This document shows, in pieces, positions 25,736 through 42,772 of a stretch of 48,702 nucleotides of DNA (position 1 is the first letter of the stretch; each line of letters begins with the position of its first letter). Location: positions 1-48,702 of the IMG/VR virus record IMGVR_UViG_3300005613_000099; one strand, 5' to 3'. The translations under genes were made by a program, and so were the position numbers. Source of the stretch: a virus. The notes beneath the pieces are model-generated. The model was not told the DNA's origin and searched no databases. It saw only the letters and a program-made list of their open reading frames with translations.

Positions 25736-25736
25736 C

Positions 25737-25946: not shown

Positions 25947-25966
25947 GAGCTATTATCACAAGCTCT
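25936..25966 (+). terminator. Hairpin at gene end
   Basis: AGAGCTT (25936-25942) pairs perfectly with AAGCTCT (25960-25966) across a 17-base loop, covering the stop codon of the gene before. There is no T-run, so it may be a processing or attenuation site rather than a true terminator. Confidence 0.3.
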
Positions 25967-26057
25967 AGGCAAGGGTACTACTATCACGAGATAATGGCTT
26001 ATAGCGACGCTAGACGCGTCTGAGACAGGCTATCAGAGCTACAAAGAGGTATTTATT

Positions 26058-26642: not shown

Positions 26643-26644
26643 CC

Positions 26645-26929: not shown

Positions 26930-26963
26930 TATAGTTAAAAATGATAGAATTGGAGGTAATACT

Positions 26964-27735: not shown

Positions 27736-28166
27736 ACAAACAAGACGAAATAAACGAATTACGAGCAAGACTAGATGCGCTTGAAGCATCACTTGGCGAG
27801 CCTGAGCAGCAATGGGCAGACGGTACGCCGGGGTGGTTTTGGGATGGGAACATCCGTGAGCGACTGTTCGGTTTCCTTGGGCGGGCGACAATGTTGAGTC
27901 ATAACCCTTATGGCCATTATTCATCACCGGCATTGAAGGGTCAGGCTTATGGATACGCGCACTTCGAACCCCTCACCGAAGCCATCCTACCCGCTATGAT
28001 CAAGCATGACGGGGGTGAGTATCCGGGGGATCTTCACGATACGGTTACTGTTACGTTCAGAGACGGTGCTGAAAATACTAGGAGAGCAAGTAGTTACCGA
28101 TGGGATCACCGAAACGCTAAGTCTGACATCGTAAGCTACCGAATCATCAAGAGGGCAGGCAAATGA
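27732..28166 (+). CDS. Hypothetical protein with N-terminal coiled coil
   Basis: A 144-residue protein; residues 1-22 (QDEINELRARLDALEASLGE) form a short coiled coil, and the rest is aromatic-rich (TPGWFWDGNIRERLFGFLG). ATG overlaps the previous stop. GC-rich codons. Function unknown. Confidence 0.5.
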   Translation: MNKQDEINELRARLDALEASLGEPEQQWADGTPGWFWDGNIRERLFGFLGRATMLSHNPYGHYSSPALKGQAYGYAHFEPLTEAILPAMIKHDGGEYPGDLHDTVTVTFRDGAENTRRASSYRWDHRNAKSDIVSYRIIKRAGK

Positions 28167-28444
28167 TCGGAATAGAACCAGAACTAAACGGCTATGACGC
28201 CGCACAGGTACTAGAAGAACGCGCAGCCGAGGAACGCGCTGATAAAGTCGCGCAGGAAAAGCTGGAAGCCCTGACCGACGAAGGTGCGCTGATTGAGATA
28301 ATGGCAGAAATGGTCCAGCATGTTCAGGCGTTAATCTACATCGGCAGGATGGTCAAGGAAGGCAGGGATGATGACGCCGGAGCCTCGTTTGTTGCCCTGT
28401 TGAAGCATGAACTGGATGCTTACGTCGAGAGTTTGGTTGAATGA
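28163..28444 (+). CDS. Helical acidic hypothetical protein
   Basis: A 93-residue, mostly helical acidic protein (EERAAEERADKVAQEKLEAL, IEIMAEMVQHVQALI). Overlaps both neighbours by four bases (ATGA), so it is translated with them. Not recognised. Confidence 0.5.
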   Translation: MIGIEPELNGYDAAQVLEERAAEERADKVAQEKLEALTDEGALIEIMAEMVQHVQALIYIGRMVKEGRDDDAGASFVALLKHELDAYVESLVE

Positions 28445-28809
28445 GAGAGATTAAATTCAGAGCATGGGACAAAAATCTGCATAAATTTCGTTATCCTGAC
28501 TTATGGGACAATTCCATGCCGTCCAATTGGCGCGACTGGTATGAGCTAATGCAGTTTACAGGCCTGCTCGACAAGAACGGCAAGGAGATATATGAGGGGG
28601 ATATTGTTGAATGTGTAGCTATTGACGGGTACGAAGACGATACTCGAATCACGGACGTGATCCGCAATGTTTCTGGTGAGTGGCAAGCACGGAACCCGCC
28701 TGATATTGATGTTGTATATGAGCATGGCTTGCCTATTACGTGGGGAGGGTGGGAATCAAAAGAAGTCATCGGCAACATATACGAGAACCCAGAGATGATT
28801 AACGCATGA
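28441..28809 (+). CDS. YopX-family protein
   Basis: A 122-residue protein with the full YopX pattern: MREIKFRAWDK at the start, LMQFTGLLDKNGKEIYEGDI in the middle and VIGNIYENPE near the end. YopX proteins are very common in phages of diverse hosts; they bind no known partner and their role is unknown. It lies in the GC-rich block. Confidence 0.85.
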   Translation: MREIKFRAWDKNLHKFRYPDLWDNSMPSNWRDWYELMQFTGLLDKNGKEIYEGDIVECVAIDGYEDDTRITDVIRNVSGEWQARNPPDIDVVYEHGLPITWGGWESKEVIGNIYENPEMINA

Positions 28810-28922
28810 AATACCTATACGGCCTAGTACTACTAACCGCCCTGCTTTTCTCAGCCAGCAGCAAGGCTGATTTTATGGGGCAGGTAGTGTTTGAGCCGAT
28901 GACTGAAATTGAATGTGATTAG
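28806..28922 (+). CDS. Short exported peptide
   Basis: A 38-residue protein; residues 1-22 are a typical signal peptide (KYLYGLVLLTALLFSASSKA) with likely cleavage after SKA. Only ~16 residues would remain outside the inner membrane. ATG overlaps the YopX stop. Possible role at the envelope; unknown. Confidence 0.5.
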   Translation: MKYLYGLVLLTALLFSASSKADFMGQVVFEPMTEIECD

Positions 28923-28932
28923 GGGAAATATA

Positions 28933-29142
28933 ATGAGTGACACATATTATACACACATAGTTCATAAGGGAAAGTCAGAACCTGTAACGATTCCTTACTA
29001 CTATAGTAAGATCAACGGGGCTTTCTATATTGCGTTCAATGAACGTGTAGAGCTACTTGACGGCACTACTGTCACGCTGTCAGATGAGCAGGTAGCTACT
29101 ATCCGGGGTAGGATTGATGATATACTACGGGAGAAGAACTAA
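28933..29142 (+). CDS. Small hypothetical protein
   Basis: A 69-residue beta-rich protein (YTHIVHKGKSEPVTIPYYYS) with a helical C-terminus (EQVATIRGRIDDILRE). ATG 28933 has AGGGGA 7 bases upstream. Composition is back to the AT-rich norm. Not recognised. Confidence 0.5.
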   Translation: MSDTYYTHIVHKGKSEPVTIPYYYSKINGAFYIAFNERVELLDGTTVTLSDEQVATIRGRIDDILREKN

Positions 29143-29318
29143 TGCCCACATGCAAAGCCTGTGACGCTGTTCTAGAACCTTGGGAACAGACCTTCGACAC
29201 TGAAACAAAGCAACATGAAGATACTTGCAAGAAGTGTTTAGGGGCTGGTTTCGATCAAGATGAAGAGGATGTATTGATACTGTTTGAGCCGTTTAGTGAT
29301 ACCACTTATCGGGAATAA
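29142..29318 (+). CDS. Small zinc-ribbon protein
   Basis: A 58-residue protein with two CxxC motifs (TCKACDAVLEPWEQ and TCKKCLGAG) about 27 residues apart, a zinc ribbon like those of small phage DksA/transcription-type proteins, and an acidic tail. ATG overlaps the previous stop (TAATG). Confidence 0.6.
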   Translation: MPTCKACDAVLEPWEQTFDTETKQHEDTCKKCLGAGFDQDEEDVLILFEPFSDTTYRE

Positions 29319-29351
29319 CATACCGTTCATCGGAAAGTTATTGACAGGGTA

Positions 29352-29380
29352 TTTACTTTACACTGAAAAAATGATATAAT
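29352..29380 (+). promoter_or_regulatory. Sigma70-type promoter
   Basis: TTTACT, 17 bases ending in ATGA, TATAAT, then ATTCTTATAG. The -10 context matches the promoters at 23544-23572 and 35131-35159. The following ~90 bases are almost pure A/T up to the ribosome site of the first paralog gene. Confidence 0.7.
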
Positions 29381-29472
29381 ATTCTTATAGTTACTTAAGT
29401 TTATTTATATGTTTATTATTTAGATATATTTATACATATATATCTATTAAATTCTAACCAAGAGGGACTACT

Positions 29473-29766
29473 ATGAGCACTAATCGAGAAGGTTATATTT
29501 ATGAGGCTAAGGAAGGGGATGGTTATGTCAGCGAGGATGGTGTTTATGTTATGGTGGAAGATGACGGAACATATATGCCATACTTCGAGGCTATAAAGGG
29601 GGAGATTTACGGCGGTGTTGCTGTACCGCGCTACATATCTTTAGACAGATTAAACCAAATCTGGCCTAAACCAGTTGAACCAGTGGAAACTATTACTTTG
29701 TTCGGTAAAGAATATAGTAAGACTGAAATTGAACAGGCACTCAAAGACGTTAAAGCAATCAACTAA
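29473..29766 (+). CDS. Tandem paralog 1 (shared C-terminal motif)
   Basis: A 97-residue protein. The N-terminal part is beta-rich and acidic (YVSEDGVYVMVEDDGTYMP). The C-terminus ETITLFGKEYSKTEIEQALK is shared, with substitutions, by the next two genes. The three therefore arose by duplication, with diverged N-terminal domains. It lies behind its own promoter and before the helicase. Function unknown. Confidence 0.6.
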   Translation: MSTNREGYIYEAKEGDGYVSEDGVYVMVEDDGTYMPYFEAIKGEIYGGVAVPRYISLDRLNQIWPKPVEPVETITLFGKEYSKTEIEQALKDVKAIN

Positions 29767-29779
29767 AGGAGAAGATACA

Positions 29780-30103
29780 ATGAATATTAGAGAAGCTTAC
29801 AAAGTAATGGAAGCTAATTGTGATATCAGTGTTGGGGATACCGTCAGGGTGCTGCGTAAGGCAGAGGATAATGAGATGGGATGGTCTAATAGCTGGGTTG
29901 ATGGTATGGATTCCTCGGTAGGAGAAGAGTTTGTAGTTAAGACTAAAGATAGCGGTACGGGTTTTGGACTTGGTGACTACCTATACCCTTTCTTTGTCCT
30001 TGAAAAAGTATCAAGCGCCGAGGTAGAAACTATCGAGCTAATGGGTAAAACCTACAACAAATCGGATATTGAATCAGCACTGTCAAACGTAAAGGAGTTG
30101 TGA
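29780..30103 (+). CDS. Tandem paralog 2
   Basis: A 107-residue protein; ISVGDTVRVLRKAEDNEMGW suggests a small beta-barrel, and the C-terminal ETIELMGKTYNKSDIESAL is the family motif. AAAGGAGAAG precedes ATG 29780. See the neighbouring paralogs. Confidence 0.6.
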   Translation: MNIREAYKVMEANCDISVGDTVRVLRKAEDNEMGWSNSWVDGMDSSVGEEFVVKTKDSGTGFGLGDYLYPFFVLEKVSSAEVETIELMGKTYNKSDIESALSNVKEL

Positions 30104-30105
30104 TT

Positions 30106-30441
30106 ATGGCTACACCATGTGAAAAGAAAGGATACAAGATTGGGCAGGTGTTTAAGGTAGTTGAGGAAAATATGTTTGCTAAGGGTAGTATTATTATTCT
30201 TGACGAAGACGATGGGACTGGCGCTCCTTTCTGGGTGTTGCTAGAGGGGGGTTTTAATAAAAATCAAACTACTCCCGGTAAATATAATATGCCCAGATCT
30301 TGTGAGTCTATTAAATATGTGGCTCGTATATACCCCCCAGAGGAACCGAAGGTAACGAAAACCATTATCCTTATGGGTAAGAGCTATTCCAAGGACGAGA
30401 TTGAAACTGCCCTCAAAGATGTTAAACCTGTTGGAGAGTAA
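30106..30441 (+). CDS. Tandem paralog 3
   Basis: A 111-residue protein; an N-terminal KIGQVFKVVEENMFAKGSI barrel-like part and the C-terminal motif KTIILMGKSYSKDEIETALK. ATG 30106 lies 8 bases after AAGGAG. It ends three bases before the helicase gene, so it is cotranslated with the replication genes. Confidence 0.6.
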   Translation: MATPCEKKGYKIGQVFKVVEENMFAKGSIIILDEDDGTGAPFWVLLEGGFNKNQTTPGKYNMPRSCESIKYVARIYPPEEPKVTKTIILMGKSYSKDEIETALKDVKPVGE

Positions 30442-30444
30442 TCG

Positions 30445-32076
30445 GTGGGTACTATTGTAGGTGACACGGCTTGTCCTAAGTGTAAAGAAGCGGGAAGGGA
30501 CTCCCACGACAATCACCTAATCTTGTTCGATGACAGTGAGTTTGGGTATTGTAATCGATGCGGGTACAGGGGCAAACCTGATGGAACATTGTACGAACCA
30601 ACTACAAGAAACTTAACAAGGGATAACATGACCGAGTTCAATGAAGTTAAAGACTTGCCTATAACAGCCTTAGCAGATAGGGGTATCAGCAAAGAGGTGT
30701 GTGAGTTATACGGTGTCCATACTGAATATGATGTAGCTACTGGTCAACCTGCTGCGTACCTATACCCATTCACTGTAGGTGGGGTTGTCAAGGCATACAA
30801 GAAGAGGATTCTACCCAAGACCTTTGTATCTGTAGGGGAGTCCCTGAAAGGACAACCTGTTGATTTCATTGGTCAGTCTGCCTGTACAGGGGGTAAGAAA
30901 CTGCTTGTTGTTGAGGGGCAGGATGATATGTTAGCAGCATATCAAATGCTCTCCAAGTATAAGCAAGATGTAGTGAGCCTACCTAACGGGGCTAACATCA
31001 AGGCTTTTAGTGACAACAAGAAGTTTCTGGATAAGTATGAGGAGGTAGTGTTTTGCCCAGATAATGATGAGGCAGGGCAGAAGGTAGTTAGGGAATTGAC
31101 TGGACTATACCCCAGTATTAAGCTGGTAGATATATCAGAGAAAGATGCAAACGATATGCTACTTAAAGGTAAGGCTAAGGAGTTTATCAATGCTTTCTTT
31201 AAAGCCAAGAGCCATGTACCAGACTCTCTTATTACCGTTGAAGATGTGTATGATGAAGCCATTGAAATGCCTACATGGGGTCGTAGGTGGCCTTGGTCCT
31301 CGCTAGATAAGTATACCTATGGTCGTCACGACGGACAAGGCATCTATGTAGGGGCTGCTGTTAAGGCAGGTAAGACAGCTTGGAAAGATCAAATGACTGA
31401 GCATATTATTGTGGTAGAGAACTCCAAGGTGTTTACCTGTTCTTTTGAGCAAGCCCCTGCTAATATTGTTAAAGCTGTTGCAGGTAAGATGGCACATAAA
31501 CAGTTTCATAAACCAGATGGCGGGTTCACCCAAGAAGAACTGCGAGAGGCTGTAGAGCATGTGAAGGGTAAACTGCTTATGTTCGATGCTTCTTATTCGG
31601 ATATATCTGTTGGCAACATGTGGGATAGATTAAAGCCAGCCATACGTCATGCTGTTGTTGTTGAGGGTGTACGAGACGTGTTTATCGATCCTATTACCCA
31701 GCTTACGGATGGTATGTCAGCATCCGATACAGAGACAGAGTTGCGAAGGTTTAGCAACGAGATAGCAGGTATGGCAAAAGACCTCGGGTTCTTTTACTAC
31801 TGCTTTTGTCATCTTAAAGCCCCGGTACAGGGAAAGACACACGAAGAGGGGGGTAAGGTTAAGGTAGCACAGTTTCGTGGCAGTCGTGCTATGGCAGAGA
31901 AGACTAAGCTTATGCTGGGTATTGGCAGAGATCAATATGCTGAAGACGAGGTTACACGTAATACCTCGCAACACCATTTGTTGTTGAATAGTGGGTTTGG
32001 CAAGACAGGAACGTTTGATGTATTCTATGACGACGAGACAGGCGATTACTTAGAACCAAGCAGGGAGTTTATGTGA
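30445..32076 (+). CDS. Primase-helicase (T7 gp4-like)
   Basis: A 543-residue bifunctional protein. The zinc-binding part holds Cys10, Cys13, Cys36 and Cys39. The TOPRIM primase domain has VVEGQDD (155-161) and CPDNDEAG (204-211). The RecA-like helicase has Walker A GAAVKAGKT (303-311) and a Walker B-like DVFIDP (~412). It unwinds the fork and primes lagging-strand DNA. The initiator is GTG at 30445, 7 bases after GGAGAG. It overlaps the oxygenase-like gene by one base. Confidence 0.9.
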   Translation: MGTIVGDTACPKCKEAGRDSHDNHLILFDDSEFGYCNRCGYRGKPDGTLYEPTTRNLTRDNMTEFNEVKDLPITALADRGISKEVCELYGVHTEYDVATGQPAAYLYPFTVGGVVKAYKKRILPKTFVSVGESLKGQPVDFIGQSACTGGKKLLVVEGQDDMLAAYQMLSKYKQDVVSLPNGANIKAFSDNKKFLDKYEEVVFCPDNDEAGQKVVRELTGLYPSIKLVDISEKDANDMLLKGKAKEFINAFFKAKSHVPDSLITVEDVYDEAIEMPTWGRRWPWSSLDKYTYGRHDGQGIYVGAAVKAGKTAWKDQMTEHIIVVENSKVFTCSFEQAPANIVKAVAGKMAHKQFHKPDGGFTQEELREAVEHVKGKLLMFDASYSDISVGNMWDRLKPAIRHAVVVEGVRDVFIDPITQLTDGMSASDTETELRRFSNEIAGMAKDLGFFYYCFCHLKAPVQGKTHEEGGKVKVAQFRGSRAMAEKTKLMLGIGRDQYAEDEVTRNTSQHHLLLNSGFGKTGTFDVFYDDETGDYLEPSREFM

Positions 32077-32726
32077 TGAAATTTATACCGAGCTATTCTT
32101 TAAGTAATACTCTCGTGAACACACTGCCCGAACATGAGATTCAGAATGAACCTATGATATTTGGAGGGTCTTGGGATTTTTGTAGGGTGAGTGGAGGAGA
32201 TTTAACTAACTATATTATGGATAGAATTGAGAATGAAGTTTCACATGATATAGAACCACACGCTTATCTTGGGTATCATCCTGTAATCGATACTAAAGTT
32301 GTTCAACTTATGCCGGGAATGTATCCGTGTATTCCGGGGTGGCATTGTGACGGGGTTATAAGAAATGATAAAAGTTCTCAGCCTAGTCTTGATACATTAA
32401 ATGAACCTGTGTACCACTATATAGCATCTATAGCTTCCGAGGATACAGCCAGAACTGAGATAATGAAATCCCGATTAGAGATAGACGTTGACCCTAAAAA
32501 TGTGTGGGGTTCAGTTGATCAATATGTCTCAGAACATTCTACATTTGATTCGTTTGGATTAAGGTCTGGACAGATTGCGAGGTTTAGGCGTTCTACGTTA
32601 CATCGTGGTACACCTGCTGTGGTAAGAACTTGGAGGTTTTTCTTTAGGTTATCTTTCTACCACATGCCTTGTATGAACCAGATACGTAATCAGGTACAAG
32701 TGTACACTACTAATGGGGGTTGGTAG
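32076..32726 (+). CDS. Oxygenase-like protein with HxD...H...R motif
   Basis: A 216-residue protein. IPGWHCDG holds an HxD pair (His90, Asp92), and STLHRGTP supplies a distal His176 followed by arginines 184-191 in a beta-rich WRFFFRLSF stretch. This spacing fits the double-stranded beta-helix of Fe(II)/2-oxoglutarate dioxygenases, which modify nucleobases or proteins. Homologs lie in phage replication modules. The assignment is from motif only; substrate unknown. It starts with an ATG overlapping the helicase stop. Confidence 0.5.
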   Translation: MKFIPSYSLSNTLVNTLPEHEIQNEPMIFGGSWDFCRVSGGDLTNYIMDRIENEVSHDIEPHAYLGYHPVIDTKVVQLMPGMYPCIPGWHCDGVIRNDKSSQPSLDTLNEPVYHYIASIASEDTARTEIMKSRLEIDVDPKNVWGSVDQYVSEHSTFDSFGLRSGQIARFRRSTLHRGTPAVVRTWRFFFRLSFYHMPCMNQIRNQVQVYTTNGGW

Positions 32727-33178
32727 TGTCAATTTACTTTTGCGACATTGAAGCAAATGGACTTTTGGAAGTTGCCACTAAAGTCCATTGCCTAAGCTCT
32801 AAGACCTTAAACGGGGCTGTTAAGACCTATATTGGGGATTATCAGGAGTACTTTGATTCACTGACAGAAAATGATACAATGGTGTGGCATAACTATTATG
32901 GTTATGATTATTCTGTGCTTGAAAAGCTGGGAGCAGTTGTGCCAGATTATGTTCAGACCATAGATACCCTAGCCCTCTCTCGTGAGTGGTGGCCTGATCA
33001 TCCTATAGGTCATGGCTTGGAAGCTTGGGCTAAGAAGTTGGGTACTTATAAGCCCATTATCGAACAGTGGGACGGACTTCCAATCGAAGACTACATAGAA
33101 CGCTGCGAAGAAGACTGCCGGACTACAGAGGCTTTATTCATGTGCTTGTGCGATAAACTGGGAATAGATTATGAGTAA
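32726..33178 (+). CDS. DNA polymerase 3'-5' exonuclease subunit (split polA)
   Basis: A 150-residue DEDD exonuclease: DIEANGL (Asp7, Glu9), HNYYGYD (Asp61) and YIERCEEDC (Asp130). It matches only the proofreading domain of T7-like polymerases. The GTG start overlaps the upstream TAG; a TTG six bases earlier is the alternative. It ends where the polymerase part would begin in T7, and an HNH gene is inserted between them. The two chains probably work as separate or paired subunits. Confidence 0.8.
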   Translation: MSIYFCDIEANGLLEVATKVHCLSSKTLNGAVKTYIGDYQEYFDSLTENDTMVWHNYYGYDYSVLEKLGAVVPDYVQTIDTLALSREWWPDHPIGHGLEAWAKKLGTYKPIIEQWDGLPIEDYIERCEEDCRTTEALFMCLCDKLGIDYE

Positions 33179-33671
33179 ACTGACACAAGAGAGGGTAAAA
33201 GAAGTCTTAAACTACGATGAAGATACGGGTATATTTACTTGGCGTAAAAGGATAGGCGTGCATTGTGTTATAGGAAGGGAGGCTGGATATAAAAGCGATG
33301 GTTATATCCGTATACAGATAGACAAAACAGGGTATTGTGCTCACCGAGTAGCTTGGCTGTATGCTTACGGTAAACTTCCTGACGGACAGATTGACCACAT
33401 CAATCATATCAGGGATGATAATAGACTTTCTAACCTAAGGGATGTATCACAACAAGAGAACCTTAAAAACATTAGGAAAGTGGATAGGAATACTAGCGGA
33501 TACACTGGCGTTACTTGGAATAAACGGGACAAGAGGTGGAACGCATTTATCAGGGCAGATGGTAAACGTATCCACCTAGGAAATTTTAAAGGTAAAATGG
33601 AAGCTGTTAAGGCCAGAGAACTAGGCGAAACTAAGTACAATTACCACCCCAACCACGGTAAACGAATATGA
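33171..33671 (+). CDS. HNH-AP2 homing endonuclease inside the polymerase locus
   Basis: A 166-residue protein. The HNH_3-type core (GQIDHINHIRDDNRLSNLR, residues ~72-90) is followed by an AP2 DNA-binding domain (NTSGYTGVTWNKRDKRWNAF, ~106-125). The start overlaps the exonuclease gene by 8 bases, and the stop overlaps the polymerase start by 4. The insertion therefore fits the two flanking frames tightly and keeps all three translatable. Confidence 0.85.
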   Translation: MSKLTQERVKEVLNYDEDTGIFTWRKRIGVHCVIGREAGYKSDGYIRIQIDKTGYCAHRVAWLYAYGKLPDGQIDHINHIRDDNRLSNLRDVSQQENLKNIRKVDRNTSGYTGVTWNKRDKRWNAFIRADGKRIHLGNFKGKMEAVKARELGETKYNYHPNHGKRI

Positions 33672-35125
33672 TTAACCTACCACCATACATCCAAGCCTCC
33701 CAACAAACCTACAAGCTTATGTGCGAGCAGGAGAGGTATGGTGTCAAGTTCGATATACAAGCGGCCAGAAGGCTTATTAAGTGGATTGATACCCGTATGG
33801 AAGAGATTGAAGACACTATCGAACCAAAGTTACCCAGACGGCCATTGAACCGGACAGAGGAGAAGCTGTATACGCCTCCTAAGATTCAGTTCAAAAAGGA
33901 TGGGACACCTAGTGCAGCTTGTCTTAAGTGGTTTAACGATATTCAAATAGCCAGTGATGGGTCATATATAGGTATAAAACACTACAAACAGTATGCTTTG
34001 CCTTTCCATGAGCCTATTGTTGATAGTCTACCTATGCAACTCAAACACCAAGGGGCTTTGAAGGACTGGTTCTTAGAGCTGGGATGGAAGCCGACTATGT
34101 TCAATTTAAAGAAGGACAGGTCTGGTAAGCCAGTACGCATTGACGGCAAGGTAGTAACTACCTCTCCCAAGTTCCATGAAGGAGGCCGTATCTGTCCTAA
34201 TCTTGAGAAGCTAGGAGACAAGGTTGATCTAATCAAGCCTATCATTGAATGGATGTCTCTACGTAACAGGCGCTCTGTGTTGCTCAATGAGGCCAAGGGG
34301 ACAGGATGGCTTAATAACCCTAGGTTAAAGGTAGATGGTCGCTTAGGAGCCGCCTCAAGCGGTCTAACCAATACCAAACGACAGAAGCACAAGGTTGTAG
34401 CCAATGTCCCAAGGGTAGGTAGTCTGCTGGGAAAGGAGATGCGATCACTGTTCGTAGCCAGTAGTGGGATGGTTCTTGTTGGTTATGATGCCTCGTCGCT
34501 TGAAGCACGGGTAAAAGGCCACTACACTTTCAAATACGATGGTGGTGAATATGCCCGTAAGATTCTTGAAGATGATTATGATGAGCACGTAGAGAACGCA
34601 GAGCTATGGGGGTGTAGTCGCGATGGTGCTAAGTCGCCGGGATATGCGCTGGCCTACAACTGTCAAGCCCCGAAGTTTGCTGAGACTCTTGGCGTACCAT
34701 TAGCACTTGGTAAGAAGCACTATGAAGCTTACTGGGATAAGAACTGGGCATTACGTAAAGCTATTGAAGAGACAGAACAGGAGTTCTCCCACAACTTTGA
34801 CAAGTTTATTACGACTATCGACGGCTCAAAGGTCGTCACTCGCCACAAACATTCGGTGTTTAATGCAAAATGTCAAAGCACAGGCAGTAAAATTATGGAC
34901 ATGGCAAATATATTTATGGACAAGTGGATCAAGGAGAATAATATCCCCGCAAACCGTGTGGTCTTCTACCACGACGAGGCGATTTATGAGTGTCGTTCTA
35001 AAGATGCCGAACGTGTTGCAGAGCTTGGGGTAGAGTCTATTAGAGAGGCTGGTAGGTATTTTAATTTGAATGTTGAACTAGACGCAAAAGCGAAGGTGGG
35101 TAGAAGCTGGGCAGAAGTTCATTAA
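33668..35125 (+). CDS. DNA polymerase, family A, polymerase domain
   Basis: A 485-residue T7-type polymerase without exonuclease domain. Motif A is VGYDASSLEAR (271-281). Motif B has Arg318, Lys322 and Tyr326, the same spacing as T7 Arg518, Lys522 and Tyr526. Motif C is HDE (436-438). Tyr326 corresponds to the tyrosine that allows dideoxynucleotide use. The N-terminus lines up with the T7 sequence right after its exonuclease domain. All catalytic residues seem intact. Confidence 0.85.
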   Translation: MINLPPYIQASQQTYKLMCEQERYGVKFDIQAARRLIKWIDTRMEEIEDTIEPKLPRRPLNRTEEKLYTPPKIQFKKDGTPSAACLKWFNDIQIASDGSYIGIKHYKQYALPFHEPIVDSLPMQLKHQGALKDWFLELGWKPTMFNLKKDRSGKPVRIDGKVVTTSPKFHEGGRICPNLEKLGDKVDLIKPIIEWMSLRNRRSVLLNEAKGTGWLNNPRLKVDGRLGAASSGLTNTKRQKHKVVANVPRVGSLLGKEMRSLFVASSGMVLVGYDASSLEARVKGHYTFKYDGGEYARKILEDDYDEHVENAELWGCSRDGAKSPGYALAYNCQAPKFAETLGVPLALGKKHYEAYWDKNWALRKAIEETEQEFSHNFDKFITTIDGSKVVTRHKHSVFNAKCQSTGSKIMDMANIFMDKWIKENNIPANRVVFYHDEAIYECRSKDAERVAELGVESIREAGRYFNLNVELDAKAKVGRSWAEVH

Positions 35126-35130
35126 ACATC

Positions 35131-35159
35131 TTGCACTTAACCTTCATATATGATATAAT
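35131..35159 (+). promoter_or_regulatory. Strong sigma70-type promoter
   Basis: TTGCAC, 17 bases ending in ATATGA, TATAAT, then ATTACTATAGACTT. It follows the polymerase stop and starts a new transcript for the genes from 35188 on. The -10 region and what follows equal the leftward promoter at 23544. Confidence 0.85.
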
Positions 35160-35187
35160 ATTACTATAGACTTTTGGAGAAACAACC

Positions 35188-35508
35188 ATGAAAAAACTAC
35201 ACGTACAATGTGAAGATTTCGATTATGATGTAGAGACAGCCGGGGATAGATTTACAGGTTCTACTACTACAATGACACGAGGGATTCAAGGCTGGTGCAA
35301 TGATTTTGTAGGAGGGGTAGTTGTACGTATCACAGATACAGGTAACGGTCTTATTGTTACTTTAGGAGATGTTGATAAAGGAATTACACTAGACTACTCC
35401 GAGGCAGACGAGCTTATGATGGCACTGTTGGCACACACTAAGAACACTGAACCCTTTTATAAAGGGTTTACCCTCCAGAGGCGTACAGTGGTTTGTGAGG
35501 TGAAGTGA
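35188..35508 (+). CDS. Hypothetical protein
   Basis: A 106-residue beta-rich protein (GGVVVRITDTGNGLIVTLGD) with a short helix (YSEADELMMALLAHTK). First gene behind the strong promoter. Not recognised. Confidence 0.55.
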   Translation: MKKLHVQCEDFDYDVETAGDRFTGSTTTMTRGIQGWCNDFVGGVVVRITDTGNGLIVTLGDVDKGITLDYSEADELMMALLAHTKNTEPFYKGFTLQRRTVVCEVK

Positions 35509-35596
35509 GTATGACCAAGCATGTTAAATAATCTGGTCGGCTCTATGCGGGTTATGGGGATTCAGTGGTGATTCACTCACATACGGGAGTAAAGGT

Positions 35597-35785
35597 ATGA
35601 ATAAAAACAGAATCGAAAAGGGCGACTTTGTAAGGGTGTTTTTCAATCACAGCAATACGGTTGAGGGTGTAGTCGATTACATACCTGCGGCCACTGGCGA
35701 TAGCTGGATAATTCTTGAGCATCAAGCAGATTGTCCTGTTTATGTTCAGTTATTTGATTACATGATTTTGGTAGAGAAAGCTTAA
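35597..35785 (+). CDS. Small SH3/KOW-like protein
   Basis: A 62-residue protein; IEKGDFVRVFFNHSNTVEGV and IILEHQADCPVYVQLFDYMI fit a small five-strand barrel. GGGAGTAAAGGT precedes the ATG. Not recognised further. The 88 bases before it hold no gene beyond a six-residue frame. Confidence 0.5.
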   Translation: MNKNRIEKGDFVRVFFNHSNTVEGVVDYIPAATGDSWIILEHQADCPVYVQLFDYMILVEKA

Positions 35786-35810
35786 CCCAATAACCGCAGG
35801 AGGTTTAGAG

Positions 35811-36137
35811 ATGAAACCTGAAACACTAAAGAAAATTGCTGAGGCGATGGGGTATGAGGTCAGACCCGTTAAAGGGATGTATGACGAAGAGTTGCCGCCT
35901 TACGTGGTCAAAGTTTATGACAGTCATGCGTGCATCAATGGTCATATTTTTTACCCCACAGAAACCCCGTCCCAGCTGGTCGAGGTCGTTGAGTGGCTGC
36001 TGAAAAGCGGATGGGAGATAGGTGCATCAAGAGGGCGTTATTTTTGTCGCAAAACCATGAATGATGCCTGGGTTAAGTATATTAACAATTCATTTTGTGA
36101 AGTTACTATGCAAGCCGCAGCAAAGGAGGTTGAGTGA
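35811..36137 (+). CDS. Conserved hypothetical protein
   Basis: A 108-residue alpha/beta protein (ETLKKIAEAMGYEV at the start, LVEVVEWLLKSGWEIG in the middle). Such short proteins with MGYEV and hydrophobic helix occur in many phages; function unknown. Slightly GC-richer than the replication genes. Confidence 0.5.
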   Translation: MKPETLKKIAEAMGYEVRPVKGMYDEELPPYVVKVYDSHACINGHIFYPTETPSQLVEVVEWLLKSGWEIGASRGRYFCRKTMNDAWVKYINNSFCEVTMQAAAKEVE

Positions 36138-36343
36138 TGGAATATAGCAAAGAAGATGTTGAAGAACTTGCCGGGACAATTCTCAACAACTGGGAAGACC
36201 ACAGTTCACAGAACAGGTATAAGTGTAATTATTGCGCTGGTTATCCCGGCGCAGAACACCCAACAAAAGAAGTTGATGGATACCCCCATGATTTGGATTG
36301 TCCCGTGCTAATAGCTCAAGACGTGTTAACGGGAGGCAGTTAA
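36137..36343 (+). CDS. Small zinc-binding-like protein
   Basis: A 68-residue protein with KCNYCAGYPG and a distal HDLDCPVL, three cysteines and a histidine that could hold zinc. GGAGG 7 bases before ATG 36137. Not recognised further. Confidence 0.5.
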   Translation: MEYSKEDVEELAGTILNNWEDHSSQNRYKCNYCAGYPGAEHPTKEVDGYPHDLDCPVLIAQDVLTGGS

Positions 36344-36390
36344 CAAATGAACACTGATGAAGCAATTAAATAAGCTGAGGAGGTTGAGTG

Positions 36391-36564
36391 ATGGTACAAG
36401 TGCAAATCACGAAGAACGGCGAAATCACATTTGATACCGAAACTAAAGAATATACGGTATGGAACGAAGTTTACTCGGATAGCGTGTGTATAACCCCAGA
36501 CTTAGAAGCTGCGGAAGCTGCTTTTAAAGAATACTGTGATACTTATTTGCGGGAAGGAGATTGA
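36391..36564 (+). CDS. Small acidic protein
   Basis: A 57-residue protein (start MVQVQITKNGEITFDTETKE). GAGGAGGTTGAG precedes the ATG. A beta hairpin then a helix (LEAAEAAFKEY). Not recognised. Confidence 0.5.
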   Translation: MVQVQITKNGEITFDTETKEYTVWNEVYSDSVCITPDLEAAEAAFKEYCDTYLREGD

Positions 36565-36567
36565 GTG

Positions 36568-36732
36568 ATGGCTGATACCCTATCAACGATTTTATTAGTG
36601 ATGTTTATGCCTGCACTAAATGCCATCAGACAGAGGAGCGATGATGAAATACAAACTAGCGCATATAACGCGAGAATTTACAGTGATAAAGTGTTGGCCG
36701 ACTACAAAGAACAGGAGAAGCATGATGGATGA
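36568..36732 (+). CDS. Small protein with one hydrophobic segment
   Basis: A 54-residue protein; residues 4-20 (TLSTILLVMFMPALNAI) could cross the membrane, the rest is polar. GGAAGGAGA precedes the ATG; the end overlaps the next gene by 11 bases. Role unknown. Confidence 0.4.
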   Translation: MADTLSTILLVMFMPALNAIRQRSDDEIQTSAYNARIYSDKVLADYKEQEKHDG

Positions 36733-37045
36733 AGTGACTCTTTCGGAAGACTGCATGTATTTCTACATAACTTATGGTGACAGCGATGCCGATTGCTATG
36801 CTCAACGCAAACGTCAAGAACTGCCTAGTGAATATCCCTTAGACTCTCATATGCCTGATACGACCATTATCAGGTTATGTGAAGCACTAAAGCAATCCCA
36901 AGCGCGGGAGGATGTTTATATTGAGGCGTTGGAGAAGATTGCTAAACATCGTGGGAATATTAATTACTCACAAGATGATTATATGTATGACCTTTCTGAG
37001 TGCCTAGATATATCCGAGCAATCCCTCAAACAACTGGAGGAATAA
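36722..37045 (+). CDS. Hypothetical protein
   Basis: A 107-residue protein. ATGATG at 36722 follows AGGAGAA at good spacing; an upstream ATG at 36641 would lengthen it and run through the preceding small gene. C-terminal half helical (IEALEKIAKH, CLDISEQSLKQLEE). Not recognised. Confidence 0.5.
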   Translation: MMDEVTLSEDCMYFYITYGDSDADCYAQRKRQELPSEYPLDSHMPDTTIIRLCEALKQSQAREDVYIEALEKIAKHRGNINYSQDDYMYDLSECLDISEQSLKQLEE

Positions 37046-37047
37046 CT

Positions 37048-37227
37048 ATGAGCTACTACGCAGAACTAGACTACGAGCAACGAGAACTTGAGCAAGCTTC
37101 TATGGAGGATGACCCCTCTTACTGGGCATGGTTAGATAATTTAGAAGAAAGGTTTGCAATAGAGACTCAGATGTGGTATACTATTAGTAGTGTTGTATAT
37201 AACGACACAATAGAAAAGGAGAAATAA
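37048..37227 (+). CDS. Small acidic protein
   Basis: A 59-residue, aromatic and acidic protein (YYAELDYEQRELEQASMEDD). GGAGGAATAAC precedes the ATG. Not recognised. Confidence 0.5.
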   Translation: MSYYAELDYEQRELEQASMEDDPSYWAWLDNLEERFAIETQMWYTISSVVYNDTIEKEK

Positions 37228-37228
37228 T

Positions 37229-37432
37229 ATGGCAACAGTAACCATAAATGAATACTTCGAAGGGGCAGATATAGTAGTACCTGTTGTTATTGATTTGGAT
37301 GATCCTGATATGGTCTATCATATAGAAGATTTGGGTATGTGGTTAGACGAGACCAACCTGAACAAACTCATTAAACTTCTCAATAGAGCAAAACGTGTTC
37401 GTAAAACCCGTACAATTAACGAAGGAGATTAA
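37229..37432 (+). CDS. Small hypothetical protein
   Basis: A 67-residue protein with an acidic beta-rich N-terminus (DIVVPVVIDLDDPDMVYHI) and a basic helical end (LNKLIKLLNRAKRVRKTR). AAAGGAG precedes the ATG. It lies directly before the SSB-like gene. Confidence 0.5.
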   Translation: MATVTINEYFEGADIVVPVVIDLDDPDMVYHIEDLGMWLDETNLNKLIKLLNRAKRVRKTRTINEGD

Positions 37433-37433
37433 C

Positions 37434-38021
37434 ATGGCACTTACACGACGAACAGAAGCATCTAGCGGTAACAAGGACTTTGCACCTATCGAGAACCTTG
37501 AGGAACGTGAATATGAAGGTCGATTGGTGTATGTCGCAGACCTTGGTATGCAGCAGCAGGAGTATAAAGGGGAAGTAAAAGACCCTCGTCAACAGATCTC
37601 TCTAGGTGTAGAGATTGTAGGGGAAACTGTTACAGTTGATGATAAGGAAGTCCCTCGTATGTTGTGGACTAAACCTTTTAACATCTTCAGTAACCTTACC
37701 GAGAAGGGTAATGAGTTGAAGTACTACTCTGTGTTTCAACCAGATGCCGTACCTGAGACTATTCCTGATTGGGATGCACAGCTAGGAAAACCTTGTTCAG
37801 TACGAGTAGTGCATCATGTTTCTGGTGATAATGTCTATGACAACATCGGGGCACTGTTGGCTATTCCTGCCAAGTACCAAGACGGTGTACCACCTGCCAC
37901 TATTGACCCGGCTATTGGTGATGCAGATGACCCCAACAACCCCGTAACCAAGAGCCTTTGGGGGTTGCCTAAGTATGTTTATGATAAGCGTATCGGAGCA
38001 GGGGGTAGTGACCCTGTTTAG
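37434..38021 (+). CDS. Probable single-stranded DNA-binding protein
   Basis: A 195-residue, beta-rich protein (YEGRLVYVADLGMQQQEYKG, VEIVGETVTVDDKEVPRMLW, KPFNIFSNLTEKGNELKYYS) with an acidic end region (IGDADDPNNPV). The pattern resembles proteins in podovirus replication modules annotated as OB-fold ssDNA-binding proteins. It would coat single strands for helicase, polymerase and exonuclease. Identification by resemblance; moderate certainty. Confidence 0.55.
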   Translation: MALTRRTEASSGNKDFAPIENLEEREYEGRLVYVADLGMQQQEYKGEVKDPRQQISLGVEIVGETVTVDDKEVPRMLWTKPFNIFSNLTEKGNELKYYSVFQPDAVPETIPDWDAQLGKPCSVRVVHHVSGDNVYDNIGALLAIPAKYQDGVPPATIDPAIGDADDPNNPVTKSLWGLPKYVYDKRIGAGGSDPV

Positions 38022-38116
38022 GTAAGGGTGGCATCTTCGGGTGCTAATCTGTTAACACCTAGCCCAGAGGGTGTTTGCCGAATATTCTGGGCAATTAATT
38101 TAACCAGGAGTTATAT

Positions 38117-38383
38117 ATGAACGAGCCAAGCACATGCATTTCCATTGAGAAAAGTAAGCATTCCGATATGCAAGAAGCCATTGATGGTATGGAGTTTGTT
38201 GTTGCAAAAGCAGCCAGCCTGCTCGGCCGCATCAGCGGGGAAGGTATAGCGGAGTACCCTATGAGCGTTCCGCAAACTGAGCCTTCATTATCCAGTGTAC
38301 TTAACTCTGGGCCATCCGAGATCAGAGATAATTGCTCGAAAATACATGGCTACTTGGATGAGATCGAAGGCACTCTGTTTTAA
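38117..38383 (+). CDS. Hypothetical protein
   Basis: An 88-residue protein with helical ends (MQEAIDGMEFVVAKAASLLG and KIHGYLDEIEG). CAGGAG lies upstream of the ATG. It is the last gene before a terminator. The 95-base gap before it contains an AACACC/GGTGTT hairpin. Confidence 0.5.
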   Translation: MNEPSTCISIEKSKHSDMQEAIDGMEFVVAKAASLLGRISGEGIAEYPMSVPQTEPSLSSVLNSGPSEIRDNCSKIHGYLDEIEGTLF

Positions 38384-38408
38384 AGCAGGGTTTTTTGTTC
38401 ACAGCGCA

Positions 38409-38440
38409 GGCTCTGGCGCAACAAACAGAGCCTTTTGATT
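38409..38440 (+). terminator. Rho-independent terminator
   Basis: GGCTCTG (38409-38415) pairs with CAGAGCC (38426-38432), followed by TTTTGATTT. It would end the transcript that starts at 35131, immediately before the structured RNA region. Confidence 0.75.
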
Positions 38441-38720
38441 TGCACACTAGCGGCGTGGAAAGTAACTGAGTCGCAAAGCGTCACAGTGAGCGCAGACACG
38501 CGACACGAAAACTGAAGCTGAGTGTTGAGGGAACGTTGGAGAGATATTACACCGTACTATTTGGGCCTCTCCTCGCCTTAGTCACGACCTGAATTAACAG
38601 GTGATACCGCCCTAGAACTAATCGGTTGAAAGCTGGGGCTTAGGTGTAAGCAGAACGTGACATAACGGTAAGATAACACCCTGATCCTCTAGCCAGAGTA
38701 GCGACTGGCCTAGTGTGCAA
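38440..38720 (+). ncRNA. Structured RNA domain closed by an 11-bp stem
   Basis: No gene fits here. TTGCACACTAG (38440-38450) is the exact reverse complement of CTAGTGTGCAA (38710-38720), 260 bases apart. Inside are local hairpins: GCGTCA/TGA(G)CGC near 38481, GGAGAG/CTCTCC, ACCTG/CAGGT, GCTTA/TAAGC and GCCAG/CTGGC. Such nested pairing is strong evidence for a folded RNA. It may be the 5' domain of one long RNA continuing to about 39155. Size and context recall GOLLD RNA; I cannot test this against its consensus. Confidence 0.6.
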
Positions 38721-38738
38721 TTCAAAGTAAAGAGTTAT

Positions 38739-38940
38739 GGGCAGGTGGCGGAATTGGTAGACGCGCCTCTTGAGGTGGTAAAGGGCATAACGTGGATAGC
38801 ATGAAGTTTAGATCCGACGGGATTTATTCAAGCTTTGAAAGGCGAGATTGCTGGAAGCGGAAAGCACCTTAACGTGGAAGCGACGAGTGTACATTAATCG
38901 TGAAAGCGCCGCGCTGGTTCGAGTCCAGCCCTGCCCACCA
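38739..38940 (+). tRNA. tRNA-Leu-like RNA with a long insert at the anticodon arm
   Basis: The 5' end has the acceptor strand GGGCAGG, T-G, and a typical Leu D-arm (GCGGAATTGGTAGACGC). The 3' end has a perfect T-arm (GCTGG, TTCGAGT, CCAGC), acceptor strand CCTGCCC, A73 and CCA. In between are about 140 bases instead of an anticodon arm and variable arm. TTGAGGTG (38770-38777), where a GAG anticodon would lie, pairs over 8 bp with CACCTTAA (38865-38872). A variable-arm-like hairpin follows. It is either an interrupted tRNA or a tRNA-like domain of a larger RNA. Confidence 0.65.
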
Positions 38941-38949
38941 TATAGCCTG

Positions 38950-39155
38950 AGCATGCTAGTGTTGTGTTTGGTGTATCAGCAACACAATCCCTGCTCCGTG
39001 TGAGGTTGGTTGCGCGAAACAGCCAACCAAGCATGTTATGAACAATGGCGTGAAGCTGGTGTAAAAAGAGTTGGACAAAAGACGGGGACGCTGGGTTTCT
39101 AACATTCTCGAAAGAGCAGCGTACCACCCTAACCTACCGCCAGTGGATCGCCACC
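38950..39155 (+). ncRNA. Structured RNA module, copy A
   Basis: GCATGCT (38951-38957) pairs with AGCATGT (39030-39036). GGTTGGTTG (39004-39012) pairs with CAGCCAACC (39020-39028). CTGGTG (39056-39061) pairs with CGCCAG (39138-39143), and a short hairpin GTGG/CCAC ends the module. A 20-base stretch (38991-39010) and several loops are identical to copy B at 39828-39999, while paired bases change together. It ends 30 bases before the next gene. Confidence 0.7.
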
Positions 39156-39185
39156 TTACAAAGCAGAATATAGAGAGGAATGAGC

Positions 39186-39389
39186 ATGGAAATAAATAAC
39201 GTAACAGATGTATTAGAAACTAGCGTATTAGTTGGCGAAGAAGACGGGCCTAATTTTATTGATACGACTTTGCTGATGTACCTGATACCATATAAATGCG
39301 GATACGACGATGCGGAAGATGTTATATCTGATGGTAAAACACCGGCGATGAAGAAAGTGAGATTATACATAAGCATTGAAGACGCATAA
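39186..39389 (+). CDS. Small acidic protein
   Basis: A 67-residue protein. ATG 39186 has GAGAGGA 6 bases upstream; ATG 39180 touches that site. Sequence VLETSVLVGEEDGPNFIDTT, then VRLYISIEDA at the end. It is placed directly behind RNA module A. Not recognised. Confidence 0.5.
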   Translation: MEINNVTDVLETSVLVGEEDGPNFIDTTLLMYLIPYKCGYDDAEDVISDGKTPAMKKVRLYISIEDA

Positions 39390-39452
39390 CAAAGAGCTCA
39401 CGGGCGCAGATAATACATCCCACTATACAAAGTAGAAGGAGGTTTCTAAGAT

Positions 39453-39809
39453 ATGAAAATTATCATAGCCGGTTCTAGAAATATTTCTGATGGTTTTGCC
39501 TTATCTAGTGTAATGCGAGAAGCAGGATATATCCTAAAAGAAAATATAGACGAGATAGTTTCTGGTGGTGCTAGAGGGGTTGATAGATTAGGGGAAGTAT
39601 ATGCGAAGGAGCAGGGAATAACTATTAAAAGATTCCCAGCTGATTGGGAGCAGTACGGCAAGGCAGCTGGTTATATACGTAACGCTGAGATGGCTGAGTA
39701 TGCTGACGCCTTGGTTGTATTGTGGGATGGTCAAAGTAAAGGAACATTACACATGATCAATACTGCTGCTAAAAAAGGTATGCCAGTGTTTATTAAGGTT
39801 TTGACATAA
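39453..39809 (+). CDS. SLOG-family protein (YspA/DUF2493-like)
   Basis: A 118-residue Rossmann-like protein. MKIIIAGSRNISDG at the N-terminus and IVSGGARGVDRLGEVYA at residues ~32-48 form the nucleotide-binding site of the SLOG/DprA-like superfamily; ADALVVLWDG and a GT motif complete it. Such proteins are predicted to bind or cleave nucleotide-derived ligands. In phages they are small stand-alone proteins with unproven roles. GAAGGAGG precedes the ATG. It lies between the two RNA modules. Confidence 0.75.
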   Translation: MKIIIAGSRNISDGFALSSVMREAGYILKENIDEIVSGGARGVDRLGEVYAKEQGITIKRFPADWEQYGKAAGYIRNAEMAEYADALVVLWDGQSKGTLHMINTAAKKGMPVFIKVLT

Positions 39810-39827
39810 ATGTTTTGGTAGGAGAGA

Positions 39828-39999
39828 AGCATGCTTAACTGCTCCGTGTGAGGTTGGTGCTAACCAGTGGTAGCGTCCTGAGCCGTGAAAACGCACTAAG
39901 GCGGCGGCCAATCAAGCACGTTATGAATTATGGATGAAGCTGGCTGACCTCAGAATGTCGTGAGAGGTTGAAACTTGTCGCAGCCAGTGGATTCCACCA
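39828..39999 (+). ncRNA. Structured RNA module, copy B
   Basis: AGCATGCTT (39828-39836) pairs with AAGCACGTT (39914-39922, one mismatch). GGTTGG (39852-39857) pairs with CCAATC (39908-39913). CTGGCTG (39940-39946) pairs with CAGCCAG (39981-39987), and a GTGG/CCAC hairpin ends it. The 20-base core at 39839-39858 equals copy A. Copy B has a larger insert (39858-39907) with its own hairpins. Two more hairpins (CCCC/GGGG, ACCC/GGGT) follow before the next gene. Confidence 0.7.
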
Positions 40000-40052
40000 T
40001 ACCCCCCAAAACAGGGGCCGATAAGACCCTTAATGGGTAGCGAGGAGGGAAT

Positions 40053-40202
40053 ATGAGTGAAGATACATCATGGTCATGGGTAGAAACAATAATCCATTTA
40101 TTATTACTCATATCTGATGAGGAAAGAATGAAGGTATTTTCTGCATTTTGCACCCATTGCGGAGATAAAGATCCAGAATGCCCATGTTGGAATGATGAGT
40201 AA
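40053..40202 (+). CDS. Small protein with C-terminal zinc-binding motif
   Basis: A 49-residue protein; a hydrophobic centre (VETIIHLLLLI) and the end FCTHCGDKDPECPCWNDE, a cysteine pattern shared by many short phage proteins. GAGGAGGG precedes the ATG. Placed behind RNA module B as the previous small gene is placed behind module A. Confidence 0.6.
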   Translation: MSEDTSWSWVETIIHLLLLISDEERMKVFSAFCTHCGDKDPECPCWNDE

Positions 40203-41057: not shown

Positions 41058-41464
41058 TGCCTTACTACCGAAAGAAAAACTCCAAGGGCAAGCCCCCCAA
41101 GCCTTACCGATCATGGCTTGAACATGGGCTAGGTACTGGGGTTTTGAAGGATATGTCTTATGAACCCTACACCATCCCGTATACAGTCGAGACAAGCTAT
41201 AAACCAGATTTTGTCAACCAAGCGAAGCGCATTATCTTCGAAGCAAAAGGCCGGTTTGAATCCTCTACTGAAGCTGCCAAATACATTCATTTTCGTAACA
41301 GCAACCCCGACTGGACAATTATATTTGTGTTTGAACGACCAGACTGCCCGATGCCGCATTCTCGTAGACGAAAAGACGGTTCACGCTATCGTCACAGAGA
41401 TTGGGCTGAGAAGAATAATTTCCTCTGGTGTAGTCCCTCAACAATAAAGGGTGAATGGTTATGA
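41057..41464 (+). CDS. Endonuclease I / Holliday junction resolvase (T7 gp3-like)
   Basis: A 135-residue protein with SWLEHGL (Glu22), SYKPDFV and IIFEAKGRF, the acidic residues and lysine of the T7 endonuclease I active site. It resolves branched DNA before packaging and helps degrade host DNA. Overlaps exonuclease and RtcB genes at both ends. Confidence 0.85.
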   Translation: MPYYRKKNSKGKPPKPYRSWLEHGLGTGVLKDMSYEPYTIPYTVETSYKPDFVNQAKRIIFEAKGRFESSTEAAKYIHFRNSNPDWTIIFVFERPDCPMPHSRRRKDGSRYRHRDWAEKNNFLWCSPSTIKGEWL

Positions 41465-42687
41465 GTAAAGATAAGTTTCTTGTAGATAGCTCTCAACGCT
41501 GGCCTATCAAGCACTGGACACGTGGTGTAGATATGGATGAGAAAGCAATGGATCAGTTGCGTAATGTGGCTTCTATGCCGTTTATCTTTAAGCATGTAGC
41601 CGCTATGCCTGATGCTCATTGGGGGATGGGTGCAACCATTGGATCTGTGGTCGCTACCAAAGGGGCTGTGATTCCCGCAGCGGTTGGTGTTGATCTCGGT
41701 TGCGGCATGATGGCCGTGCAGACATCTCTTACCGCTAATGATCTGCCTGATAATCTTCATGAGATACGTCTGGATATTGAGCAGGCGGTTCCTCATGGGC
41801 GTACAAACAACGGTAAGAAGGGCGACCGAGGCGCATGGGCAGAATTGCCTGCCTCTCATAAGCAGCGTTGGTTAATCCTCAAGGAGCGTTACGACAAGAT
41901 TATCTCCAAACATCCTAAAGCTGAAGGTTACAATACTTGGCAGCATATGGGTACGCTAGGCACAGGTAATCACTTCATTGAAGTATGCCTTGACCAAAAT
42001 GATGCTGTCTGGGTAATGCTTCACTCAGGTTCTCGCGGTGTTGGTAACAAGATTGGTCAGTACTTTATCGAGAAGGCTAAAGAGGAAATGGAACGCTACC
42101 ATATCTTGGATAATCTGCCTGACAAGGATTTATCCTACCTTGTAGAGAATACTGAGTTATATGATGATTATGTTGAAGCTGTTGAGTGGGCTCAGGATTA
42201 TGCTCTTGAGAACCGAAAGGCTATGATGGAGAATAGTTTGGCAGTTCTTCGTAACCACTTACCACCATTTGCTATTACAGAAATGGCTGTCAATTCACAT
42301 CATAATTATATTGCTAAGGAGAACCATTTTGGTAGTAATGTGATCGTGACTCGCAAAGGCGCGGTGAGGGCGCGTAAGAACGATCTAGGCATTATTCCCG
42401 GTTCTATGGGCACGGGTTCATTCATTGTACGTGGTCTTGGAAACGAACAGTCCTTCTGTTCTTGCTCACATGGCGCTGGTCGGGTTATGTCCAGAGGTCA
42501 GGCTAAGAAAGAGATCAGTCTGGAACAACATGCTAAGGCTATGGAGGGTATTGAAGCTCGTTTGGATAAAGATGTCCTTGATGAGAGCCCCGCAGCGTAC
42601 AAGGATATTGGTGCGGTTATGGCTGCTCAGGACGATCTCGTTGAGATTCTTTATCGTTTACGTCAAGTAGTCAACATTAAGGGTTAA
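41461..42687 (+). CDS. rtcB: RtcB RNA ligase
   Basis: A 408-residue RNA ligase joining 2',3'-cyclic phosphate (or 3'-phosphate) to 5'-OH ends with GTP and Mn2+. Metal ligands are in GVDLGCGM (Asp78, Cys81), GTGNHFIEV (Asn170, His171), HSGSRG (His188) and NSHHNY (His281). His337 in CSCSHGAGR is the guanylated residue. All appear intact. ATG 41461 lies 9 bases after AAGGG. A tRNA-Pro gene follows by 8 bases, so repair of tRNAs cut by host anticodon nucleases is a reasonable role. Confidence 0.92.
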   Translation: MSKDKFLVDSSQRWPIKHWTRGVDMDEKAMDQLRNVASMPFIFKHVAAMPDAHWGMGATIGSVVATKGAVIPAAVGVDLGCGMMAVQTSLTANDLPDNLHEIRLDIEQAVPHGRTNNGKKGDRGAWAELPASHKQRWLILKERYDKIISKHPKAEGYNTWQHMGTLGTGNHFIEVCLDQNDAVWVMLHSGSRGVGNKIGQYFIEKAKEEMERYHILDNLPDKDLSYLVENTELYDDYVEAVEWAQDYALENRKAMMENSLAVLRNHLPPFAITEMAVNSHHNYIAKENHFGSNVIVTRKGAVRARKNDLGIIPGSMGTGSFIVRGLGNEQSFCSCSHGAGRVMSRGQAKKEISLEQHAKAMEGIEARLDKDVLDESPAAYKDIGAVMAAQDDLVEILYRLRQVVNIKG

Positions 42688-42695: not shown

Positions 42696-42772
42696 CTGTG
42701 CGTAGCTCAGTTTGGTAGAGTTCTCGGTTTGGAACTGAGATGTCGCAGGTTCAAATCCTGCCGCGCAGACCA
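42696..42772 (+). tRNA. tRNA-Pro (anticodon TGG)
   Basis: Complete cloverleaf with encoded CCA: acceptor CTGTGCG/CGCGCAG (one G-U), D-arm GCTC/GAGT, anticodon stem CTCGG/CTGAG with loop TTTGGAA and TGG at 42730-42732, T-arm GCAGG/CCTGC with TTCAAAT, discriminator A. It would read CCA/CCG and other proline codons. Confidence 0.93.

Follow-up and report, generated by a model that had tools for sequence, protein, structure and literature searches.

Two intergenic modules, here termed A and B, in the 48,702-nt stretch of viral DNA analysed (the window; IMG/VR record IMGVR_UViG_3300005613_000099) very probably belong, together with a third copy (C) on a different phage contig, to a real, small and new RNA family with three known copies, the core structure of which is well supported. 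The initial annotation had proposed a structured RNA module present twice, with compensatory changes in its stems, and this proposal is supported here and strengthened by the copy in another phage. The common core of A, B and C consists of a hairpin (h1/h2), a linker UUAUGAAnnA and a second hairpin (h3/h4), to which variable peripheral loops are added (Table 1).

Judged by their sequences, A and B are true relatives beyond reasonable doubt, since they share an exact 20-mer, further blocks in a fixed order and an alignment score above that of all 200 shuffles. The 20-base core (CTGCTCCGTGTGAGGTTGGT), annotated as identical at 38991-39010 and 39839-39858, is indeed exact in both copies; it occurs exactly twice in the window (0 expected in shuffles), and a third match is absent from the window even at up to 3 mismatches. 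The second shared block, GCCAAYCAAGCAYGTTATGAAnnATGG, is 85% identical over 27 nt between A and B, and the third, GCCAGTGGAT, lies at 39139-39148 in A and 39983-39992 in B; the three blocks follow one another in identical order, and the local A/B alignment reaches a score of 55, where the shuffles peak at 34-35. The loop words singled out previously are also present in both modules, TTATGAA at 39036-39042 (A) and 39921-39927 (B) and TGAAGCTGG at 39051-39059 (A) and 39935-39943 (B), but they are not terminal loops: TTATGAA is the linker and TGAAG one side of an internal loop. The extents first assigned, 38950-39155 for A and 39828-39999 for B, proved too wide, conservation being confined to about 38991-39155 and 39838-39998; positions 38950-38985 of A have no clear counterpart in B.

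Support for the structure comes from comparison, since single-sequence folding is unexceptional (z -1.9 for A, -0.25 for B). When the variable loops were removed by hand, the aligned cores of A, B and C spanned 104 columns at 85% mean identity (n=3), and RNAalifold, without a supplied structure, returned two hairpins on this trimmed core. In the consensus, h1 (CGUGU/GCAYG), a GA/AA internal loop and h2 (GGUUGG/CCAAYC) make up the first hairpin; in the second, h3 reads UGGA/UCCA in B and C and UGGCG/CGCCA in A, h4 reads CUGGY/RCCAG, and the internal loop UGAAG/UGGAU is invariant in all three copies, a symmetric loop that would be compatible with a run of purine-purine pairs. Paired cells number 60 of 61 (98.4%), compared with 26-47% after shifting the partners by 1-3 columns, and the consensus energy, a value favoured by the hand trimming of loops, is -31.3 vs -16.0 +/- 3.1 (z -5.0), with 0 of 2000 class-preserving column shuffles as low.

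The joint changes noted earlier between CTGGTG/CGCCAG in A and CTGGCTG/CAGCCAG in B are real. Position 5 of h4 differs on one side between A and B (U-G vs C-G), position 6 differs on both (G-C vs U-A), and the B stem is one pair longer; h3 holds the second two-sided change, with G-C plus an extra C-G pair in A and A-U in B and C. True covariation is modest, amounting to one two-sided core pair and the outer end of h4, and with three sequences the covariation shuffle control is not significant (166/500). The one-sided changes that preserve pairing, three of three, give G-U on the + strand and A-C mismatches on the - strand, which identifies the + strand as the folded one and makes a DNA cruciform less likely. 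The stems persist in the homologous phage. A protein-frame origin is ruled out by 1-nt indels inside conserved blocks, including the most conserved stretch (GGCGTGAAG vs GGATGAAG), and by the lack of a shared frame. The linker also holds AUG AAY NAU GG..., a possible minute reading frame with no ribosome-binding site, which would encode MNNGVKLV in A (39036-39065), MNYG in B (39921-39938) and MNNG in C.

Table 1. Coordinates in the window of the modules, their core elements and neighbouring genes. R1 is the covariance model built from A and B, so that its scores for A and B are scores on its own training sequences.
Feature	Position	Strand	Evidence or remark
Module A, conserved core and two variable loops	38991..39155	+	R1 81.1 bits, 2e-18
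A, conserved unpaired 5' segment CUGCUC	38991..38996	+	alignment
A, hairpin 1	38997..39035	+	RNAalifold, pair counts
A, h1 (CGTGT/GCATG), then 2x2 internal loop GA/AA	38997-39001 / 39031-39035
A, h2 (GGTTGG/CCAACC)	39004-39009 / 39023-39028
A, linker TTATGAACAA	39036..39045	+	core alignment
A, hairpin 2, variable apical region ~76 nt	39046..39153	+	RNAalifold, pair counts
A, h3 (TGGCG/CGCCA)	39046-39050 / 39149-39153
A, hairpin 2 internal loop (TGAAG/TGGAT)	39051-39055 / 39144-39148
A, h4 (CTGGTG/CGCCAG)	39056-39061 / 39138-39143
Small gene after A (67 aa from 39186, 69 aa from 39180)	39186..39389	+	no PHROG/Pfam match
118-aa gene between A and B	39453..39809	+	PHROG 289 'GTP-binding domain'
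Module B, conserved core and two variable loops	39838..39998	+	R1 86.9 bits, 6e-20
B, hairpin 1, variable apical region ~50 nt	39845..39920	+	RNAalifold, pair counts
B, h1 (CGTGT/GCACG), loop GA/AA	39845-39849 / 39916-39920
B, h2 (GGTTGG/CCAATC)	39852-39857 / 39908-39913
B, linker TTATGAATTA	39921..39930	+	core alignment
B, hairpin 2	39931..39996	+	RNAalifold, pair counts
B, h3 (TGGA/TCCA)	39931-39934 / 39993-39996
B, hairpin 2 internal loop (TGAAG/TGGAT)	39935-39939 / 39988-39992
B, h4 (CTGGCTG/CAGCCAG)	39940-39946 / 39981-39987
49-aa gene after B, four clustered cysteines (CTHC...CPC)	40053..40202	+	no family match
RtcB-type RNA ligase	41455-42687		PHROG 1075, 1e-144
tRNA-Pro(tgg), just after the RtcB gene	42696-42772

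Copy C (IMG/VR 3300009537_000938; L054:4366-4660) was retrieved through an IMG/VR pattern scan with the middle block alone, independently of the 5' and 3' blocks, and carries the 5' block 112 nt upstream of the middle block and CCAGTGGATTCCACC 166 nt downstream. A stricter IMG/VR pattern again gave L054 as its sole true case, and a 16-mer from the 5' block retrieved L054 along with three chance matches. Across the 6.4 million bases fetched, with both strands counted, all three blocks are found only in A, B and C, the last counted also within its overlapping locus L357. The model R1 detects C only in pieces because the loops of C are far longer than those of R1. No further module was found in the phage records searched or in one pattern scan of species genomes of bacteria and archaea (~85,000); the covariance model matched nothing in 369 genomes of one class, 398 genomes of one phylum gave a single chance-level match to an 18-mer, and among the matches listed in the last viral scan none qualifies as a module. 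Rare copies additional to A, B and C may exist.

Several candidates were rejected: L169-L171, L159-L167 and 18 pattern matches in genome contigs lack the other blocks, L123 is a coding stretch with a common start-codon region, and a match 5' of the RtcB gene in L158 (GCTCCGTGTGGGGTTTG, 2 mismatches) was a post hoc pick for which the other two blocks are absent and 4-10 of 200 shuffles are equally good. In that phage, ~280 nt of noncoding sequence directly 5' of tRNA-Asn and RtcB (L158:5520-5798) has AGAGTAGCGACT as a hairpin loop, in common with the end of window positions 38434-38726, and also carries a near match to the 5' block of the modules.

B aligns better with C (score 93) than with A (55), although the phage that carries C is mostly unrelated: all it shares with the window is one endolysin-type protein (64%) and a handful of weak YopX and accessory matches. 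Movement of copies between phages is thus probable, the alternative being strong constraint on the core. The C contig begins with a bacterial EF-Tu fragment (L356:52-966) and may therefore be a prophage edge or an assembly join.

A, B and C belong to a previously unlisted RNA family, missing from Rfam. With Rfam 15, the window has a single feature that reaches a threshold, the tRNA-Pro at 42696; A and B have no meaningful match at E up to 10, and C has none at E up to 3; the tRNA, tmRNA, ribozyme, GOLLD and ROOL models do not match the modules, and ARAGORN calls no tRNA or tmRNA over them. A resemblance between AAGCAUGUUA and the tmRNA word AAGCAUGUAGU, with AUCCGACGGGAUUU in the neighbouring tRNA-like gene, is treated as chance, the modules having neither a tmRNA model match nor an ARAGORN call. 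The apical part of C contains a tRNA-like T arm (GGTTCAAATCC) that was not found in A or B and matches no tRNA model; HDV-like, hammerhead and group I readings, made by eye, miss required elements.

Among characterized systems, the nearest analogue in logic is put of phage HK022, where two related copies (putL and putR), each ~70 nt with two stem-loops, are cis-encoded in transcribed regions downstream of early promoters and bind the beta' zinc-binding domain of RNA polymerase (PMC9378689). A and B are likewise two similar copies in one phage with two predicted stem-loops each; unlike put, the cores of A, B and C are ~85 nt long and carry roughly 80-210 nt of peripheral loops, and A and B are not near a visible promoter. 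A search with R1, filters off, of positions 24000-40000 of an HK022 record that lacks put annotation, the region expected to hold put, stayed at chance level (best 8.4 bits, E 2.4). Because the searched stretch shows no sequence relation and put-like action is hypothetical, we do not file the modules as put elements. The SAS and ESAS elements of cluster K mycobacteriophages are repeated and intergenic, upstream of unrelated genes, SAS being a 13-bp word directly at the start codon to which ESAS adds 17-bp inverted repeats (PMC3203893); the modules are also repeated, intergenic and placed before unrelated phage genes, and SAS/ESAS are partly inverted repeats, but the modules comprise two different hairpins, set back ~30-85 nt from the start codon, and number only two. 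Structured phage RNAs of the GOLLD and ROOL families often lie near tRNA genes (PMC12286853). A similarly adjoins a tRNA-like gene, whereas B and C have no detected tRNA alongside, and, unlike A and B, GOLLD members are often > 800 nt and both families have Rfam models.

All three copies are intergenic and share the strand of the gene that follows; A and B belong to the replication half, on the + strand, with a 208-aa gene on one side and a 5'-3' exonuclease gene (40209) on the other. B starts ~29 nt past the stop codon of the preceding gene and a promoter scan found no sigma-70-like promoter directly upstream of A or B, so both probably lie inside an operon message. The position of each module before a small gene, as annotated, is true but weak evidence in a dense phage operon. 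For the first of these genes, the annotated start at 39186 has the better ribosome-binding-site spacing, but an earlier in-frame ATG exists at 39180. The product of 39453-39809 is SLOG/DUF2493-like by inspection, the gene downstream of C (72 aa) has no family match, and the genes following A, B and C appear by eye to be mutually unrelated.

About 50 nt before A ends a class II tRNA-like gene (38739-38942) with a GGGCAGG...CCTGCCC acceptor, D arm, T arm and encoded CCA. It is missed by ARAGORN and Rfam and has an insert of ~110-125 nt, which could be an intron or a giant variable arm, or the gene could be a tRNA-derived RNA; script-excised versions were mostly called tRNA-Ser(tga) or tRNA-Leu(gag). 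An untranslated block of ~290 nt (38434-38726), with no Rfam match, is closed by a 17-nt inverted repeat at 94%, and its inner repeats (38547/38643 and 38581/38651) would cross in pseudoknot-like fashion. Elsewhere in the window, a family A DNA polymerase (32720-35125) is in two parts with an HNH-like frame (33171-33671) between them, several further HNH-like frames are recognized by inspection at 12837-22514, and ~1 kb between the transcription halves (23016-24084) has few reading frames on the expected strands and may hold divergent promoters.

With homology, core structure, strand and a second-phage copy established, and with no sign of gene specificity, we tentatively favour, at a little under even chances, the view that the modules are a cis-acting element on the transcript, put-like in logic. 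A and B would be made within a polycistronic + strand transcript, in which the two neighbouring hairpins have purine-rich internal loops and are accompanied by conserved unpaired stretches, UUAUGAAnnA between them and CUGCUC in front. Conserved bases in these stretches and in the internal loops would be contacted by a factor that different hosts or phages have in common, for which RNA polymerase, the ribosome, a host RNA-binding protein or a ligand are candidates, and binding would act in cis, most likely on transcription read-through or mRNA fate and not on one particular gene. Factor binding is suggested by the inclusion of unpaired and internal-loop bases among the conserved ones, as in factor-binding RNAs, and a general effect over a gene-specific switch by downstream genes without family matches or visible kinship. 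Four observations count against a cis-acting element: a TTTTTT run (L054:4661-4666) directly follows C, which also has a weak promoter-like match on its upstream side, features that would equally suit a free-standing terminated RNA; A follows closely on the tRNA-like gene, which would suit a processed cluster; start accessibility is unchanged in C and only slightly changed in A and B; and put lies downstream of early promoters (PMC9378689), none of which is visible here.

The main rival is a processed small RNA, which we regard as possible if on balance unlikely: A and B would be separate small RNAs, processed from the operon transcript or made alone, that act in trans as decoy or partner of a protein or RNA of the host or the phage. 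The packing of A behind the tRNA-like gene and the inverted-repeat block resembles a stable-RNA cluster, C ends in a T6 run, large differences in peripheral-loop size are tolerated, and the downstream genes are unrelated, all in keeping with such RNAs; yet neither a promoter nor a terminator was detected on the + strand at A or B, and beyond the core the copies show no common signal for 5' or 3' processing.

It is improbable that the modules are recombination exchange points for small gene cassettes, with an RNA fold that is secondary or inherited from a mobile element. A and B do form direct repeats flanking a two-gene cassette (39180-39809), and B and C are close in phages that are mostly unrelated, but A/B identity is limited to short blocks of ~20-27 nt, and conservation tracks structure, with + strand G-U changes that fit RNA and would be needless for recombination sites. 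Just as improbable is a gene-specific leader that would control the following small gene as a riboswitch or translational operator. In A, the conserved UGCUC has a predicted pairing (p about 0.97) with GAGCA (39182-39186) that would cover the start codons AUGAGCAUG of the gene downstream, but this pairing is not seen in B or C, and translation control by hiding the start site, displayed by A alone, was rejected. The three downstream proteins are unrelated, and a gene-specific translational switch is further weakened by the predicted accessibility of the start region, which barely depends on the module (with/without module, 0.60/0.64 for A, 0.48/0.64 for B and 0.38/0.38 for C), a result that suggests a more general role, either for an element that acts on the message or its polymerase or for a free RNA. 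Least probable, and very unlikely, are self-cleaving or catalytic RNAs that cut the transcript and whose ends the phage RtcB-type ligase could join: the compact core, conserved unpaired bases and variable peripheral loops are ribozyme-like and the ligase is encoded 1.5 kb downstream, but no Rfam ribozyme matches even at E 10, the module was found in none of 33 viral loci with a related RtcB (49-79% identical), no RtcB stood out among the proteins shared with the C phage, and no pseudoknot is evident in the core.

The modules might constitute a new compact class of phage RNA that has passed between unrelated phages and contacts the transcription or translation machinery of the host directly, a reading that we consider distinctly unlikely; the contact would be made through the conserved internal loops, and the element would be a protein-free antiterminator or similar, present twice in one operon. 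Few phage RNA elements are known to work with no protein dedicated to them, and studies of such elements have revealed host mechanisms. The compact, strongly conserved core described here, common to mostly unrelated phages and outside Rfam, is a small and testable object.
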